35,977 nt of DNA. It comes from a virus. Both the position numbers and the translations under genes were made by a program. Below are positions 7,090 through 24,570 of this stretch, one piece after another (position 1 is the stretch's first letter; the number at the start of each line of letters is the position of its first letter). Location: positions 1 to 35,977 of the IMG/VR virus record IMGVR_UViG_3300005828_000108; one strand, given 5' to 3'. Under the pieces are notes generated by a model. That model ran no database searches. It had not been told where the DNA came from and saw only the letters and a list, made by a program, of their open reading frames with translations.

Positions 7090-7246
7090 GGTCGTGACCG
7101 TCGACGGTTGGAACGGATCGTTCTGGGTGGAGATAGCTGATCCTTTGGTCGGGGGTTACGCGGTGGCCCGAGGGATAGTATTCGGTTCCGTCAGGACCGA
7201 CAATGGGGCCATCGTCAAACAGCGGTGTTTGGGTTCTTCGCGCCAT
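7007..7246 (-). CDS. Unknown 79-residue protein
   Basis: Starts at ATG 7246 with GGAGTAAACG upstream, 3 nt after the preceding stop, so it belongs to the same transcript. A polar protein with a FDDGPIVGPDGTEYYPSGHRVTPDQRISYLHP core. The PDGTEYY segment resembles short phage proteins in actinobacterial genomes that share a DGTEY or DGSVYYA strand; compare RPDGTDFYSG and RPDGSVYYAT in the genes ending at 14052 and 14854. Function unknown. Confidence 0.7.
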   Translation of the reverse strand: MARRTQTPLFDDGPIVGPDGTEYYPSGHRVTPDQRISYLHPERSVPTVDGHDLAIYATLVDNEDSNGRTPYDRLMADSA

Positions 7247-10399: not shown

Positions 10400-10441
10400 G
10401 CCCCGCGCTCAACCCTACGGGAGGTGAGGGGAGCGCGGGGC
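10400..10441 (-). terminator. Hairpin downstream of the ParB gene
   Basis: An 11-bp stem, GCCCCGCGCTC (10400-10410) with 10431-10441, continues after a 2-nt bulge with CCCT/AGGG. It stands about 60 nt after the ParB-protein stop and before erf, in the position of a terminator for the upstream unit. No U tract is visible. Confidence 0.6.
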
Positions 10442-10502
10442 GCTGGGGCCGTTCAACCCCCAGCCTGCACCGGGCACGGGCAGGTGACCCGGCACAGGTT
10501 TG

Positions 10503-12074
10503 TTACGCGCTCTGGTAGGACTCCTTCCTACGGGCGCGGTAGTTGGACTCGGCCTTCTTCTGCATGGCCGGCGTGAGCTTCTTGAGCCCCATGTCAGCCA
10601 CGGGCGAATCGCCGGTGATGTCGTAGCCCTTGCGGTTGGTCCGCGCCAGGCAACGGTCGTCGGCATAGCGAGCCGCCGTGACCAGCTGCATGTAGCGGGC
10701 CAGGCAGTCCTCGACGGAGACGGACGACTCGATGAACTTGACGACCTTCCCGTGGGCGTCGTTCTCGAGGTAGACCTTCTTGGTCTTGTCGCCCTCGCCG
10801 GTCGTGGTGATCCAGCCGGGGTGCAGGTAGCGCAGGCCCTTGAGCAACCACTGGTGTCCGTGGTCGGCGCAGGCCTGCAGCACGATCGCCTCGATCAGCT
10901 GCTTGGTCGGCTTGATGTCGGCGATGCGCTCGAACACCTGGGTCGAGAGTTCGGCGTTGTACGCCTCGCCCTGGACCTGGTCCTCGAGGCGCTTGCGGCG
11001 CTCCTCCTTGCGCTGGTCGGACGCTGCCTTCTTCTCCTCCTCGGTGGGCTCGCGGTCGTCCCGCTGCCACGGCTTCGGAGGCTGGATGGCACCGTCGATG
11101 TCCGGCGCGTTCTCGTCGTCGGACTCGGCCTGCTCCTTGTTCTTGGCGTAGGTCTTGGCCCACGCCTGGAGCGCGTCGATGGCGAGGACAGAGGCCAACT
11201 CCGGATCGAAGAACGCTGCCGTCGATTCGTCGTAGTGCTCGGTGGCGTCCGGATCCTTGTACCGGTAGACGGCACCGCGAGTCTCGGCCTGCTCGATGAT
11301 GTCGTCGGTGACGACGAACGTCGGGCGGGTGTTGGTGGCCTCGGTGTACTCGCGGACGAGCATCATGCCCTCGTCGTCGCCGATGATGTCCTCGCAGTAG
11401 TAGCTGCGGTCGAGCTCGAACGTCGGGACGAAGCCCGGCTCGTTCGGGATCTGGTCGCGCAGACCGTGGAGCGGGTTCTTGCCGATCACACGGCCGGAGT
11501 GCGGGTTGCGCTTGAGCCAGCGCAAGACGACCTGGGCGGCCTCCTTGTGGACCTTCGACAGCTGGGCGATGAGCCGGAAGGTGTCCGGGGACACTCCGTG
11601 CTCCTCGACCAATTCGAGGGCGAGGTCGCCGAGCTCGAGCATGTCGTACGCCTGCTTGACGGCGTTCGGCTTGATCGCGAGCTTCTCGGCGATGGCCTTC
11701 TGCGACGAGTAGCCGGACTCGCGCATACGGCCGACGCCGCGCACGATCTCAGCGGTGGTCAGGTCGCTGCGGTGCAGGTTCTCGACCAGGGCGGCGGGGA
11801 GGTCGTCCTCGACCGAGGAGTACTTCTCCTCGCGGATCATGATCGTGATGTCGGTGAGTCCAGCCTTCTTGGCGGCGAGCAGGCGCCGGTGGCCGGCGAT
11901 CAGCTTGTAGCCCTCAGTGCCGTTTGTGCGGACGGTCAGCGGGGTCAGGAGCCCGTTCTGCTCGATGGACTTGGACAGGGAGTTGATGCGCTCGTCATCG
12001 ATGTGACGGCGGGGGTTGAAGTCCTCCTCGACGTGGATCTGGTCAATCGGGACTGTCATCGTGCGGGGTGGCAT
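10503..12074 (-). CDS. ParB-domain protein with long C-terminal extension
   Basis: 523 residues from ATG 12074 (AAAGGAACAC upstream). Residues 5-105 match the ParB N-terminal fold: VPIDQIHVEEDFNPRR, IEQNGLLTPLTVR, YKLIAGHRRLLAAKKAG (GHRR at 61-64, the nucleotide-binding box) and ENLHRSDLT. Residues ~115-145 are a helix-turn-helix (YSSQKAIAEKLAIKPNAVKQAYDML). The remaining ~350 residues are a polar extension with a Glu/Lys-rich linker (~345-380) and a helical C-terminus; this part is not recognised. ParB proteins bind parS-like sites and slide using CTP. No ParA is present in the window, so it is an orphan, perhaps for replication control, transcription or counter-defence. Confidence 0.8.
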   Translation of the reverse strand: MPPRTMTVPIDQIHVEEDFNPRRHIDDERINSLSKSIEQNGLLTPLTVRTNGTEGYKLIAGHRRLLAAKKAGLTDITIMIREEKYSSVEDDLPAALVENLHRSDLTTAEIVRGVGRMRESGYSSQKAIAEKLAIKPNAVKQAYDMLELGDLALELVEEHGVSPDTFRLIAQLSKVHKEAAQVVLRWLKRNPHSGRVIGKNPLHGLRDQIPNEPGFVPTFELDRSYYCEDIIGDDEGMMLVREYTEATNTRPTFVVTDDIIEQAETRGAVYRYKDPDATEHYDESTAAFFDPELASVLAIDALQAWAKTYAKNKEQAESDDENAPDIDGAIQPPKPWQRDDREPTEEEKKAASDQRKEERRKRLEDQVQGEAYNAELSTQVFERIADIKPTKQLIEAIVLQACADHGHQWLLKGLRYLHPGWITTTGEGDKTKKVYLENDAHGKVVKFIESSVSVEDCLARYMQLVTAARYADDRCLARTNRKGYDITGDSPVADMGLKKLTPAMQKKAESNYRARRKESYQSA

Positions 12075-12342
12075 GTGTTCCTTTCGGCTCGTATTGCGGA
12101 TACCGCCCGTCGCGGTAATCCTCGATGAAATGAAGAACGACGGGCGGGGGGGAGATGAAGTTGATGCGACCGAGGTCGGAGATTCGCAGTGTGCCCAAGA
12201 CGACGCTGGCGTTGAGGGCTACCTCCACCGGGGAGCGGGGCCAGGAGTCGGTCCAGCGGCCCCTGGGGAGGCTGGTGAGGGGTTCGAGGGAGCGTCGGGC
12301 GCGGACCTGGTTGACGAACTGGAGAACGGCTGTTTCCGACAC
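12043..12342 (-). CDS. Unknown 99-residue protein, leaderless start
   Basis: Starts at GTG 12342. There is no ribosome site, but TACCTT lies exactly 6 nt upstream (12349-12354), so the mRNA is probably leaderless. Sequence FVNQVRARRSLEPLTSLP, then VALNASVVLGTLRISDLGRINFISPPPVVLHFIEDYRDGRYP. It overlaps the ParB-protein start by 32 nt and would be the first gene of that unit. Function unknown. Confidence 0.65.
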   Translation of the reverse strand: MSETAVLQFVNQVRARRSLEPLTSLPRGRWTDSWPRSPVEVALNASVVLGTLRISDLGRINFISPPPVVLHFIEDYRDGRYPQYEPKGTHATPHDDSPD

Positions 12343-12348
12343 CGTCCG

Positions 12349-12358
12349 AAGGTAACGT
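12349..12358. promoter_or_regulatory. Interleaved divergent -10 elements
   Basis: Plus strand TAACGT (12353-12358) lies 6 nt before ATG 12365; minus strand TACCTT (12354 to 12349) lies 6 nt before GTG 12342. Both fit TANNNT and they share the two bases 12353-12354, so RNA polymerase could occupy only one at a time. The two start codons are 22 nt apart. Confidence 0.55.
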
Positions 12359-12364
12359 GTCGGT

Positions 12365-12985
12365 ATGACGACCGACTTGGCACAGCGGGGGGCTGACGGG
12401 AAGAAGCTGGGCGCCAGGAGCCCGTACAGCGCGGAGCTGATCGACTACGCGCTGTGGATGGTGGCGATCGAGGGCGGGTCGGCCTCGAGAGCGCACAACC
12501 GGATGATCGCCGAGCACGAGGAGAACCCCAAGCACGAGATGTACAAGGCCGGGGTGCCGACACGGCAGGTCATGACGAAGTGGTCGCGGATCACCTACAA
12601 GAACCGTTACACGGAGCTGCTGAACCTGCGGCACAGGGAGATGGACGAGGCCATCGCCTCAGAAGCTCAGGTGATCGCCCAGCAGATCGCCAGCGCTGAG
12701 GTCGCTGCAATCAAGCAGACCCAGGCTGGGATCGCCGGCGCCAATGGAGTAGAGGCTTCACAGATACTGCGGAACCTGTCGCAGAGCAAACAGGTGCAGC
12801 TGCAACAGGCTGGCCTGATCCGTGAGCGGCCATTGGTCGAGCGACAGGCAGACGACATTCACTCGATTGCCCGATCCCTGAATGATCTGGCGGGAGGGCA
12901 CGTAGTGGAGGTCGTGACGGCTGAGGACGTTCGGGACGCCGAGGTCGTGGAGGACGCTATGGAAGCGGAGGAAACGTCTTCTTGA
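12365..12985 (+). CDS. Helix-turn-helix protein, candidate terminase small subunit
   Basis: 206 residues. Residues ~20-75 contain a helix-turn-helix-like domain (YSAELIDYALWMVAIEGGSASRAHNRMIAEHE ... in two helices, then PTRQVMTKWSR). Residues 80-165 are a long Ala/Gln-rich helix suited to oligomerisation, followed by a polar acidic tail. This layout (DNA-binding N-terminus, central assembly helices, acidic C-terminus) fits small terminases, which recognise phage DNA for packaging. However, the gene is isolated on the plus strand, 10.7 kb from the large subunit, so a replication or transcription regulator is the alternative. Leaderless-type start (TAACGT, 6 nt, ATG). Its end overlaps the convergent gene by 29 nt. 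Confidence 0.55.
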   Translation: MTTDLAQRGADGKKLGARSPYSAELIDYALWMVAIEGGSASRAHNRMIAEHEENPKHEMYKAGVPTRQVMTKWSRITYKNRYTELLNLRHREMDEAIASEAQVIAQQIASAEVAAIKQTQAGIAGANGVEASQILRNLSQSKQVQLQQAGLIRERPLVERQADDIHSIARSLNDLAGGHVVEVVTAEDVRDAEVVEDAMEAEETSS

Positions 12986-13196
12986 CATCGTTGCCGTGGT
13001 AGTCGAGGACGAACATCTCGGCCTGGGCCGGGTTGTGTTCGGCGACGACTAGGTAGAAACCGGCGTGGTCGGTGCCGGGGTCGGTGGTTTGGGTGTACTG
13101 GTCGATGGCCTGGTCAGCCGTCTCGGCGGCGATGTACTCGCGGAAGGTGTGCTGGTGGTAGATGGGCTGGAGTTCGTGGATGCACCAGTTGATGAT
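12957..13196 (-). CDS. Unknown 79-residue protein with apparent ATC start
   Basis: The coding part begins INWCIHELQPIYHQHTF and runs to KKTFPPLP. No ATG, GTG or TTG is available: an AAAGGAG ribosome site is followed 5 nt later by ATC ATC (13196-13191), exactly where the SSB gene, with the same AAAGGAGCC leader, has its ATG. Upstream in frame the sequence becomes Arg/Pro-rich and non-coding in character. The product is a small alpha/beta protein (ETADQAIDQYTQTTDPG, GFYLVVAEHNPAQAEMFVLDYHG). Function unknown. Confidence 0.6.
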   Translation of the reverse strand: MINWCIHELQPIYHQHTFREYIAAETADQAIDQYTQTTDPGTDHAGFYLVVAEHNPAQAEMFVLDYHGNDVKKTFPPLP

Positions 13197-21370: not shown

Positions 21371-21623
21371 GGGGGAAGGTGTCGCGGAGCCACTCGGAGT
21401 ACAGCTCGTCCCGGTCGGAGAGCTCGGCGTTGCGTCGACGCAGGATGCTGTTTGCCTCGACTGTGGCCTCGTAGGCGGAGCGCATGCGCTCGACGGCTCC
21501 ACGCTCGCAGGGAGAGAGGGGCCAGGCGCGGTCGATCAGGTCGGCGATGATGCCGGTGGTGTACTCGTCAAGGCATTGGGGCTGGTTTTCGGGATGGGTT
21601 GCGGGCAGGTCCGGGAATCTCAT
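21363..21623 (-). CDS. Unknown 86-residue protein
   Basis: ATG 21623 with AAGGAGATAGCCG upstream; overlaps the preceding gene by 56 nt. MRFPDLPATHPENQPQCLDEYTTGIIADL, then helices (ERGAVERMRSAYEATVEANSILRRRNAELSDRDELY). Helical C-terminus could dimerise. Not recognised. Confidence 0.65.
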   Translation of the reverse strand: MRFPDLPATHPENQPQCLDEYTTGIIADLIDRAWPLSPCERGAVERMRSAYEATVEANSILRRRNAELSDRDELYSEWLRDTFPRD

Positions 21624-21891
21624 CGGCTATCTCCTTGAGTAGGGGCAGGTAGGGCCTGGTGACATCGGGGGGGAGTCCGCGAAGGATTGCGAGGAGCTCG
21701 TCGCGAGCAGCTGCAGCGGCCTCTGCGCGGCGCAGGTAGAAGGCGAGGTCGGAGTAGACCTGCTCGAGGCGGGAGGCTGAGACGACCGCCCTGAACTCGA
21801 CAGGGGCATGACAGTCGGGACAGATTAGGTTGGGGCCGTTTGGGAGCCAGGTGCGGCACTCGCATGTGGCCCCGTCGATGATTCGGTCCAT
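21568..21891 (-). CDS. Cys-containing protein at the head of the operon
   Basis: 107 residues from ATG 21891 with AAGGAGCATC upstream. Begins MDRIIDGATCECRTWLPNGPNLICPDCHAPVEF: a CxC and CxxC pair that should bind zinc, followed by a long helix (LEQVYSDLAFYLRRAEAAAAARDELLAIL) and a Pro-rich tail. First gene of the minus-strand operon, divergent from the small plus-strand gene at 21913. Confidence 0.65.
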   Translation of the reverse strand: MDRIIDGATCECRTWLPNGPNLICPDCHAPVEFRAVVSASRLEQVYSDLAFYLRRAEAAAAARDELLAILRGLPPDVTRPYLPLLKEIADEIPGPARNPSRKPAPMP

Positions 21892-21900
21892 GATGCTCCT

Positions 21901-21912
21901 TAGAGTTGGGGT
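21901..21912 (+). promoter_or_regulatory. Leaderless-type -10 for the gene at 21913
   Basis: TAGAGT (21901-21906) fits TANNNT and is followed by exactly 6 nt and GTG. No purine ribosome site is present. No clear -35 hexamer is seen. Confidence 0.45.
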
Positions 21913-22137
21913 GTGGCGCTGCCTCTCCCGCATCGTAGGCCGAAGGACTTCGACGAGCTGGCCCGGGCGCTCGAGCGGATCTCGAGCGATCTGGGCAAGG
22001 CGCTGTTGGTGCAGCCGGATGGGACCGTGGAGCTGCGGGTGGCGGGGGCCGGGATGATTCTGACGTCGCCGGATGGGAACACGCGGGCGCTGGTGTCGAT
22101 CAACAACGCCGGCGCGGTGATCTCGACCACGCTGTAA
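21913..22137 (+). CDS. 74-residue protein, leaderless plus-strand gene
   Basis: Starts at GTG 21913 directly after the -10/6-nt spacer. (M)ALPLPHRRPKDFDELARALERISSDLGK is helical; VQPDGTVELRVAGAGMILTSPDG and TRALVSINNAGAVISTTL form beta strands, a small alpha/beta protein. Convergent with ArdC, separated by a strong terminator. Function unknown. Confidence 0.6.
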   Translation: MALPLPHRRPKDFDELARALERISSDLGKALLVQPDGTVELRVAGAGMILTSPDGNTRALVSINNAGAVISTTL

Positions 22138-22196: not shown

Positions 22197-23039
22197 TCAG
22201 GCGAGCGCCTCCACACGCTCGGTGGCCTGCTCTGTGGGGGAGTCTTCGATCAGGTTCATGATTTGGCTGGAGAAGTGGACAGCCTGCTCGGCTGCCTCGG
22301 CGACGATGGCGTCGTCCTCGTTCGACCAGGTGGTGACGTAGGAGATCGTCTCCTCGCTGACGTCCAGTCCGATGAGGTTGCCGACGATGTAGGTGGTCGA
22401 GTCGCATATGCACTCGGCCTCCTCCCGGCTGAACTTCTCGTAGTCCACACCGAGGGCGTGAGTCATCTCGTGGATGAGGATGCGCAGCTGACGGTTGGGC
22501 TCGAGGCCACGCTGGATCACGATCTCGTCGTCTTTCGTATGGAAGCCCAGGACGCCGGGCTGGTTGATGTCCTCGAACGTCAGGGGCCAGCCCATCCGAT
22601 CGCAGGCCTCGACGCAGCGGACGAGGTAGGCGTTGTGGGAGTCGCCGCCCACGATTGAGCCGGGCGGGTCGAGCTCGATCACGTTGTCTGGGTCGTTGGG
22701 CTCGGTCTGGGACACGTCGAAAACCTTCACTCCCTTGAAGAACAGCTTGGTGCGCTCGGGGTCGTCCCGGTCCTTGACTTTCATCGGTGCGAGGATCCAG
22801 ATGGCTGTCGAGCCCTTCTTGATGTGGCGGTCGAACTCGCGGCGCCACTTGCCCGCGCCGGCGACCCTGGTGGCCTCGGGGTACTGGCAGGCGATCAGGA
22901 TGGTGTTGCGGAACGAGTAGCGGTGGAACTTGGTGCGGACCTTGAGCCAGCGGAGCCAGCCCTCCGATGTGCGGAGGTTGGCAACGGCCTCGGTCATGCG
23001 CTCCTTCGACTTTTGCATGGCGTATTCGCGCTTGGTCAT
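22197..23039 (-). CDS. ArdC-like antirestriction protein with HExxH metallopeptidase domain
   Basis: 280 residues from ATG 23039 (AAAGGACCACCC upstream). Residues 1-90 match the ArdC N-terminal single-strand-DNA-binding domain: RTSEGWLRWLKVRTKFHRYSF, NTILIACQYPEATRVAGAGKW, IKKGSTAIWILAPM. After a region with VFDVSQTEP comes a zinc metallopeptidase domain: RILIHEMTHALG (HEMTH at 190-194) and SREEAECICDSTTYIV for the third ligand. ArdC of conjugative plasmids shields incoming single-stranded DNA from type I restriction. Here it is alone, divergent from terL, and could act early after entry. Peptidase activity is inferred from the motif. Confidence 0.8.
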   Translation of the reverse strand: MTKREYAMQKSKERMTEAVANLRTSEGWLRWLKVRTKFHRYSFRNTILIACQYPEATRVAGAGKWRREFDRHIKKGSTAIWILAPMKVKDRDDPERTKLFFKGVKVFDVSQTEPNDPDNVIELDPPGSIVGGDSHNAYLVRCVEACDRMGWPLTFEDINQPGVLGFHTKDDEIVIQRGLEPNRQLRILIHEMTHALGVDYEKFSREEAECICDSTTYIVGNLIGLDVSEETISYVTTWSNEDDAIVAEAAEQAVHFSSQIMNLIEDSPTEQATERVEALA

Positions 23040-23053
23040 GGGTGGTCCTTTCT

Positions 23054-23085
23054 GCGGCGGCGGGGTCCTATCCCCCCGCCGCCGC
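23054..23085. promoter_or_regulatory. 12-bp inverted repeat between ardC-like gene and terL
   Basis: GCGGCGGCGGGG (23054-23065) pairs perfectly with 23074-23085. It occupies most of the 67-nt divergent gap. It may be an operator that controls both genes or part of the ardC leader. Confidence 0.55.
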
Positions 23086-23106
23086 TAGTACAGCAACACT
23101 TCCTTC

Positions 23107-24570
23107 ATGCGGATCAAGATCGATGTCGAGCAGCTGCAGGGCCTGCCGCCCGTAGAGAGGGATGCTGCACTCAAGAAGCTGCAGTCGATCAGGGCCAAGC
23201 TCAAGCGCAATCCCCTGCTGGGTTACAACCCCTGGTCGGCGCAATGGAGCTTCCAGACGCATTCTCAGCGTCTGAGAGCGTTCCTGGGAGGCAACCGGGC
23301 CGGCAAGACGACGGTGGGCATCGCAGACGATGTGATCCAGGTCACGCCGCGGGAGATGGTGCCGCAGGAGTTGTGGCCGGTGAAGCGGTACGACTGCCCG
23401 TGCTTCGTGAGGATCATTAACCCGTCGGCAAAGCTGAGTCGCTCGATCATCATCCCGAAGCTGAGGGAGTGGCTGCCGGTTGCGCTGCTGAAGGACGAGC
23501 GGTGGGCCAAGAGCTACTCGAGCCAGGACGGTTCGCTGTATCTGGCGTGTGGCTGCAGGATCGATCTGATGAGTTACGAGATGGAGCTCGACAAGTTCGG
23601 CGGCGATGCGTTGCACCGGGTTCACTACGACGAGGAGCCGCCGCAGGAGATTCGGGACGAGAGCTGGGCCAGAACGCTCGACTACGACGGCGACGAGATT
23701 TTCACGATGACGCCGCTCAAGGGCCTGACATGGATGTACGAGGAGATTGTGCTGGCTGCTGAGGAGAAGCAGGAGGAGATTCACATCGAGAGCGCCTCGA
23801 TGCTCGACAACCCGTACCTGCCGTCGAACGTGCGGGACCGCGTGTGGAGCATGTGGGGCGATTCGCCCGATGCGCAGGCGCGCGTTCACGGCGACTTCGT
23901 TCACAAGGCCGGGCTGGTCTATCCCGACTTTCACGGCCAGGGCCGGACGGGCTACACGCGCGAGTGGGTCAAGTCGGTGGCGGAGGACATCTACGTCGGG
24001 ATCGATCCTGGGGTGCAGTACACGGGCCTGATCTGGGCGGTGTTCGATCAGGGGAACGCCCTGCACGTGATCGATGCGGTGAAGATGCAGGACGTAAACG
24101 TCGACGGGGTGGCTTCACGGATCAGGGAGCGGAACGATTACTGGCAGATTCGCGATCCGCAGTTTGTGATCGATCCGGCTGTTGGACACCGGGAGCACTC
24201 GCGGGGGCAGAGATTGGAGGTCGAGTACCAGAAGGAGGGGATCTACGCGATCTGGGGAGACAACGACCGGGAGGTCGGTGTCTCGACGCTCAGGCGGCGG
24301 ATGGCGAACGACGCGTTCTTCTTCAACGAGGATCGCTGTCAGGATTTGGTGCGGGAGGCGCGGAACTACCGGATCCTCGAGCGGGAGGACGGGAAGTTCG
24401 ATGTGGTCAAGGTCCACGATCACCTGATGGACGCGCTGCGCTACGTGGCGATGATGCGCGTGTTCGACCCGCCGATGAAGAAGGCGCCGGGCGGGCACCG
24501 GAATCCCGAGCTTGCCTGGGCGCCTCCGAAGAAGCAGCCGAAGCACTCGGTCATGGGGATCGGCGCGTAG
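23107..24570 (+). CDS. terL: Terminase large subunit
   Basis: 487 residues from ATG 23107, which has no ribosome site but AACACT exactly 6 nt upstream. ATPase: Walker A GGNRAGKTT (61-69), Walker B region HRVHYDEEPP (D175-E177), coupling motif TMTPLKGLTWMYEE (~200). RNase H-like nuclease: YVGIDPGVQYTG (D300), FVIDPAVGHRE (~355) and HDHLMDALRY near residue 452, giving the three acidic residues. It translocates and cuts DNA during head filling. It sits at the start of the right structural arm, without an adjacent small subunit. Confidence 0.95.
   Translation: MRIKIDVEQLQGLPPVERDAALKKLQSIRAKLKRNPLLGYNPWSAQWSFQTHSQRLRAFLGGNRAGKTTVGIADDVIQVTPREMVPQELWPVKRYDCPCFVRIINPSAKLSRSIIIPKLREWLPVALLKDERWAKSYSSQDGSLYLACGCRIDLMSYEMELDKFGGDALHRVHYDEEPPQEIRDESWARTLDYDGDEIFTMTPLKGLTWMYEEIVLAAEEKQEEIHIESASMLDNPYLPSNVRDRVWSMWGDSPDAQARVHGDFVHKAGLVYPDFHGQGRTGYTREWVKSVAEDIYVGIDPGVQYTGLIWAVFDQGNALHVIDAVKMQDVNVDGVASRIRERNDYWQIRDPQFVIDPAVGHREHSRGQRLEVEYQKEGIYAIWGDNDREVGVSTLRRRMANDAFFFNEDRCQDLVREARNYRILEREDGKFDVVKVHDHLMDALRYVAMMRVFDPPMKKAPGGHRNPELAWAPPKKQPKHSVMGIGA

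Follow-up and report, generated by a model that had tools for sequence, protein, structure and literature searches.

A predicted bidirectional leaderless promoter with a shared –10 element between divergent operons of a probable actinobacteriophage

The window, by which we mean the whole stretch of DNA analysed here, is an IMG/VR virus record of 35,977 bases with a G+C content of about 64%. Its large terminase and major capsid proteins have distant kin in Microbacterium phage Shocker, Cellulosimicrobium phage DS1 and Arthrobacter phages, which makes an actinobacterial host likely. No close relative of the phage was found, the region 10400–13100 had no DNA similarity to any of 50,697 known phages, and no Rfam family matched the window. 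Gene starts were assigned with a codon model and by reading the sequence, not with a trained gene finder. A leftward block, which extends from 12342 to 5730, includes genes of the ParB_N, Erf-like annealing, exonuclease and RuvC-like types, and the rightward structural genes start at 23107 with the large terminase gene (23107–24570). In the interval 12342–12985, back to back with the leftward block, lies one rightward gene. The features of this locus are as follows.

10503–12074, minus strand: gene with a ParB_N domain (PF02195, E=3.7e-19), second in the leftward operon, preceded by the Shine-Dalgarno-like sequence AAAGGAA
12043–12342, minus strand: open reading frame of 99 aa with a GTG start, overlapping the start of the ParB gene by 32 nt
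12336–12363, no strand assigned: perfect 7-bp inverted repeat CCGACAC-N14-GTGTCGG, touching both start regions, a possible operator
12349–12358, no strand assigned: putative shared bidirectional –10 element AAGGTAACGT (pattern ANNNTANNNT), identified by reading the sequence; one of four such sites in the window
12349–12354, minus strand (complement of 12354–12349): leftward –10 hexamer TACCTT, at –12 to –7 of GTG 12342
12353–12354, no strand assigned: shared TA step, in which each base pair is –12 of one promoter and –11 of the other
12353–12358, plus strand: rightward –10 hexamer TAACGT, at –12 to –7 of ATG 12365
12365–12985, plus strand: gene for a 206-aa protein with a predicted HTH (residues ~20–80) and a long helical hairpin, a candidate small terminase

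Positions 12340–12367 read CACCGTCCGAAGGTAACGTGTCGGTATG, and with the left arm of the inverted repeat included, positions 12336–12367 read CCGACACCGTCCGAAGGTAACGTGTCGGTATG. The first-pass annotation had placed start codons at 12342 on the minus strand and 12365 on the plus strand, 22 nt apart, and had described TACCTT and TAACGT as two TANNNT hexamers that share two bases and each end 6 nt before their start codon; this geometry is exact in the sequence. The start codons are GTG 12342–12340 and ATG 12365, and the two spacers occupy 12348–12343 on the minus strand and 12359–12364 on the plus strand. The –10 elements thus overlap on opposite strands at 12349–12358, as in described bidirectional promoters, and on each strand TANNNT stands at –12 to –7 of a start codon, as in actinobacterial leaderless promoters. 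Besides the shared TA, the only distinct requirements are the two –7 T residues, provided by T12358 rightward and by A12349 leftward. TACCTT is preceded by CGT, which matches the CGN preference reported for M. tuberculosis. Both hexamers fit TANNNT alone and not the fuller TATAAT, and no sigma-70-like –35/–10 pair was found on either strand in 11900–12800. Neither start has a Shine-Dalgarno sequence at normal spacing (an AAGG ends 12 nt before ATG 12365), unlike many other genes of the window, which carry AGGAG or GGAGG sites. The TAA within the rightward –10 is an in-frame stop, so the rightward gene cannot start earlier. If both mRNAs are leaderless, their start sites would lie 23 bp apart.

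Our data demonstrate that TANNNT is rare in this genome. The window holds 33 copies on the plus strand and 24 on the minus strand (57 in all), compared with about 104 and 101 (about 205) in dinucleotide shuffles, and ANNNTANNNT occurs 4 times for about 18.5 expected in the same shuffles. The depletion is concentrated in coding DNA: genes contain 18 copies where synonymous-codon shuffles contain 80 (z –8), the purge extends to their antisense strand (21 versus 97), and TANNNT is about 2.5-fold denser between genes than in coding DNA. The control motifs TANNT, TANNNNT, TANNNC and TANNNG remain at 0.83–0.95 of expectation in the synonymous-codon shuffles. Since the motif has been removed from coding DNA and is denser between genes, the surviving intergenic copies are likely functional. 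That spurious –10 motifs are selected against is already known (PMC1939733); what is notable is the strength of the purge from the coding DNA of this window. The purge, specific to this genome, suggests that TANNNT is the functional signal for the uncultured host of this phage, and it offers a means of recognising the phage's own promoters. For comparison, TANNNT stands at 0.48 of expectation in Shocker and at about 0.9 in DS1 and Jasmine.

At the observed density, 0.04 occurrences of TANNNT at exactly –12 to –7 are expected for the 49 predicted genes. The starts so placed are 12365 and 21913, both called by the gene finder, together with GTG 12342; none of the other called gene starts in the window has the motif there. 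A –10 pair at two divergent starts is therefore unlikely to be due to chance in a genome purged of TANNNT. The interleaving itself adds little to this argument because TA is self-complementary and, given a plus-strand –10, the minus-strand –10 requires only A12349; the extra A that creates such a mirror –10 is present in 4 of the 33 plus-strand copies. Two boxes sharing two bases thus amount to one coincidence plus about 3 bits, not to two independent ones. The argument gains its strength from the exact register of the two start codons, which lifts the site above chance.

The layout also recurs outside the phage. We counted CAYN6-ANNNTANNNT-N6RTG in 60 actinobacterial genomes, with N9 spacers, N4 spacers and the reversed pattern as controls. 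The N6 layout occurs at 106 sites in 47 of the 60 genomes, compared with 61 sites in 25 genomes for the N9 control, 81 sites in 32 genomes for the N4 control, and 80 sites in 32 genomes for the reversed pattern. The genome-paired excess is significant, discordant genomes splitting 24:2 against N9 and 21:6 against N4. Two of the 20 sites that were read lie between recognisable gene pairs starting exactly at those codons: L172 (1000–1028), between genes for a RadA-type ATPase and a HAD hydrolase, and L175 (1000–1028), between CoaE and UPF0029 genes. Two long open frames were missing at most of the remaining sites inspected, which means that many single matches are due to chance. Taken as a whole, the counts suggest that an interleaved leaderless layout is real and recurrent in actinobacterial hosts. 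The L172 and L175 pairs resemble the phage site in having the same layout between two genes, in their case Pfam-recognisable ones, and differ from it in that the host genes are unrelated to the phage pair; the two sites are likewise predicted promoters. Cultivable relatives carrying pairs of this type would lend themselves to testing more readily than the phage.

Bidirectional promoters that share a –10 element have been described by the Grainger group; the distance between their divergent start sites is 10, 18 or 23 bp (PMC12825309), the 18-bp class being explained in a separate study (PMC10268837). As in those promoters, the –10 elements of the phage site overlap on opposite strands, giving one polymerase site with two orientations, and its predicted spacing of 23 bp corresponds to one of their three common classes. 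Two differences stand out: one product of the published promoters is often antisense or non-coding, whereas both starts predicted here are start codons of divergent ORFs; and the phage site belongs to a phage of a GC-rich host. In M. tuberculosis, TANNNT lies 7–12 bp upstream of start sites without a –35, and about a quarter of the genes with a primary start site are leaderless (PMC3898074). The phage site has the same hexamer in the same range, no –35, and predicted start sites at the start codons; the M. tuberculosis promoters are described singly, whereas here two share a TA step. The nearest precedent in a phage is the PL1/PR2 pair of Cluster O mycobacteriophages, which serves divergent operons of an actinophage and in which both promoters are predicted to be leaderless (PMC4351075). 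In Firecracker and Dylan, the annotated genes at the PL1/PR2 gap are about 500 bp apart, so the –10 elements of that pair cannot interleave. Interleaving sets the phage site apart from PL1/PR2, yet it belongs to the known 23-bp class. We thus regard it as a putative new example of an already described kind of bidirectional promoter, one that combines the leaderless TANNNT pattern with the 23-bp shared –10 pattern.

A unifying model based on these data, to which we assign a probability of about 0.68, is that 12349–12358 is a bidirectional leaderless promoter for a sigma-A-like host RNA polymerase, its two directions being probably only weakly coupled. A housekeeping-type (sigma-A-like) host polymerase would bind these 10 bp in either orientation, the self-complementary TA at 12353–12354 providing –12 and –11 both ways and T12358 and A12349 the respective –7 T. 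In the rightward orientation, transcription would start at A12365 and yield a leaderless mRNA for the 206-aa HTH protein. In the leftward orientation, it would start at 12342, yield a leaderless mRNA for the 99-aa ORF, and read through into ParB and the leftward recombination genes. The two orientations could not be occupied at once, and at ordinary firing rates each direction would probably have little effect on the other, switch behaviour being expected only if one direction were strongly activated. If confirmed, this would be a very compact actinophage divergent control region, serving two operons from 22 bp and with no untranslated leaders. A stronger version, in which this 10-bp element within 22 bp in all partitions a replication/recombination operon from a candidate packaging gene by polymerase orientation alone, without leaders, a –35 or a dedicated regulator, seems to us highly improbable. 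Because A12349 and T12358 each serve one direction and lie outside the other hexamer, the site, if confirmed, would be a clean system in which to ask when steric exclusion becomes regulatory.

How strongly the two directions affect each other bears directly on the first-pass annotation, which had proposed that polymerase binding must be mutually exclusive and that this makes a simple switch. The exclusivity holds up as an expectation: the hexamers overlap within a shared 10 bp, and published bidirectional promoters are described in terms of such steric exclusion (PMC12825309). The switch, in which exclusive binding alone would set the choice between two transcription programmes during infection, fares less well. 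In E. coli the basal firing of all five bidirectional promoters tested was too low for polymerases to interfere; the other direction was repressed only once one direction was strongly activated (PMC12825309). Competition is thus a demonstrated possibility under strong one-sided activation, but low occupancy is to be expected at the phage site since neither hexamer is near consensus and no –35 was seen. Sub-consensus hexamers, the lack of a –35 and weak basal firing in E. coli together make weak coupling the default expectation, and a true toggle appears very unlikely. The inverted repeat may bind a dimeric regulator, either the HTH protein or ParB, which would cover the shared –10 and shut off or bias both directions. 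Its perfect 7-bp arms, 21 bp from centre to centre, flank the –10 and touch both start regions, and each flanking operon codes for a protein that binds DNA or is predicted to do so. However, a repeat as good is found in 8% of random 60-bp stretches of the window, and GTGTCGG is not enriched there (6 copies for about 9.8 expected), so we consider operator control quite unlikely.

Two other readings dispense with one or both of the leaderless starts. The rightward leaderless promoter alone may be real, the leftward –10 being an accidental mirror, the 99-aa ORF no gene and ParB expressed from elsewhere. The cheapness of the mirror hexamer, the weak coding signal of the ORF with its lack of homologues, and the Shine-Dalgarno-like sequence belonging to the ParB start itself are all consistent with this. 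On the other hand, a GTG in exact register on the leftward side as well has odds of about 4% by base composition, and lower odds still when it must open a 99-codon frame; the stretch from 12342 to the ParB start holds no further leftward-pointing TANNNT; and the layout is enriched in actinobacterial genomes. We therefore hold a one-way promoter to be unlikely, though credible. Alternatively, transcription of both genes could start further upstream from ordinary leadered promoters, the TANNNT pair being incidental and the AAGG 12 nt before ATG 12365 acting as a weak ribosome site. The spacing of that AAGG is unfavourable for a Shine-Dalgarno interaction, the 4.7 kb upstream of 12365 contain no other plus-strand TANNNT, and the stretch 11900–12800 offers no sigma-70-like site, all of which makes this reading distinctly improbable. 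The bidirectional leaderless promoter remains our preferred reading.

On the leftward side of this promoter, the flanking operon is only partly secure. The coding score per codon is 0.046 for the 99-aa ORF, compared with 0.39 for the 206-aa protein and 0.56 for ParB. No homologue of the ORF was found; it gave weak matches in 396 actinobacterial genomes, but those inspected lay in unrelated or implausible frames and were taken as chance. With its weak coding score and no homologue, the ORF leaves the leftward start codon insecure, and should it prove not to be a gene, leftward transcription would instead yield a ParB mRNA carrying a leader of about 270 nt. Of the ParB-side operon named in the first-pass annotation, the ParB_N gene itself is well founded, while the first leftward gene is this unplaced ORF. 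The gene finder picked a competing rightward ORF at 12130–12396, whose end runs into the 206-aa gene; we did not prefer it, as its score is similarly weak and no homologue turned up.

The rightward gene had been put forward as a candidate small terminase. Searches with both flanking proteins against viral contigs, genomes, phages and plasmids gave no significant match except via relatives of the large terminase, through which four distant homologues of the 206-aa protein were reached in related virus records; they share a K..L...RPTQI-like stretch. Neither the protein nor its homologues had a significant match among PHROG, Pfam or PDB sequences. An alignment-based fold predicts an N-terminal HTH followed by a helical hairpin (pLDDT about 93 for residues 21–90). 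Foldseek gave no significant match to it in the PDB and VIA-align none with Z ≥ 5; the phage protein phBC6A51 (2ao9) was a weak structural match (Z 3.5) that did not rise above unrelated rows. A single-sequence fold was poor and gave no match. In all four related records the homologue genes lie on the large terminase strand without being adjacent to the large terminase, and in the window the 206-aa gene lies about 10 kb from it, short of the adjacency looked for in a small terminase gene. The assignment is thus plausible on the predicted fold and on the strand shared with the terminase in relatives, and lacks both a profile match and proximity to the large terminase. The homologues sit among co-directional ORFs in 4 of 4 records, with no divergent pair, and a ParB_N search of nine related records, fragments among them, was negative; the divergent arrangement is therefore not conserved.

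Other promoter-like sites are present in the window. TANNNT is absent from the other clear divergent pair (23039–23107), to which the large terminase start belongs; the late operon therefore probably relies on another signal. At 7175–7181, an intergenic ATAGTAT forms TANNNT on both strands, offset by one base, and is a candidate for an overlapping divergent –10. The start at 21913, a GTG opening a 74-aa ORF, is the third in exact leaderless register in the window (21901–21915), preceded by TAGAGT and 6 nt. Finally, a second intergenic ANNNTANNNT (AGATTAGGTT) lies at 21822–21831, flanked by a leftward gene with its start at 21623 and by the rightward ORF of 21913, and is possibly another bidirectional promoter of the 23-bp class, in this case with leaders.
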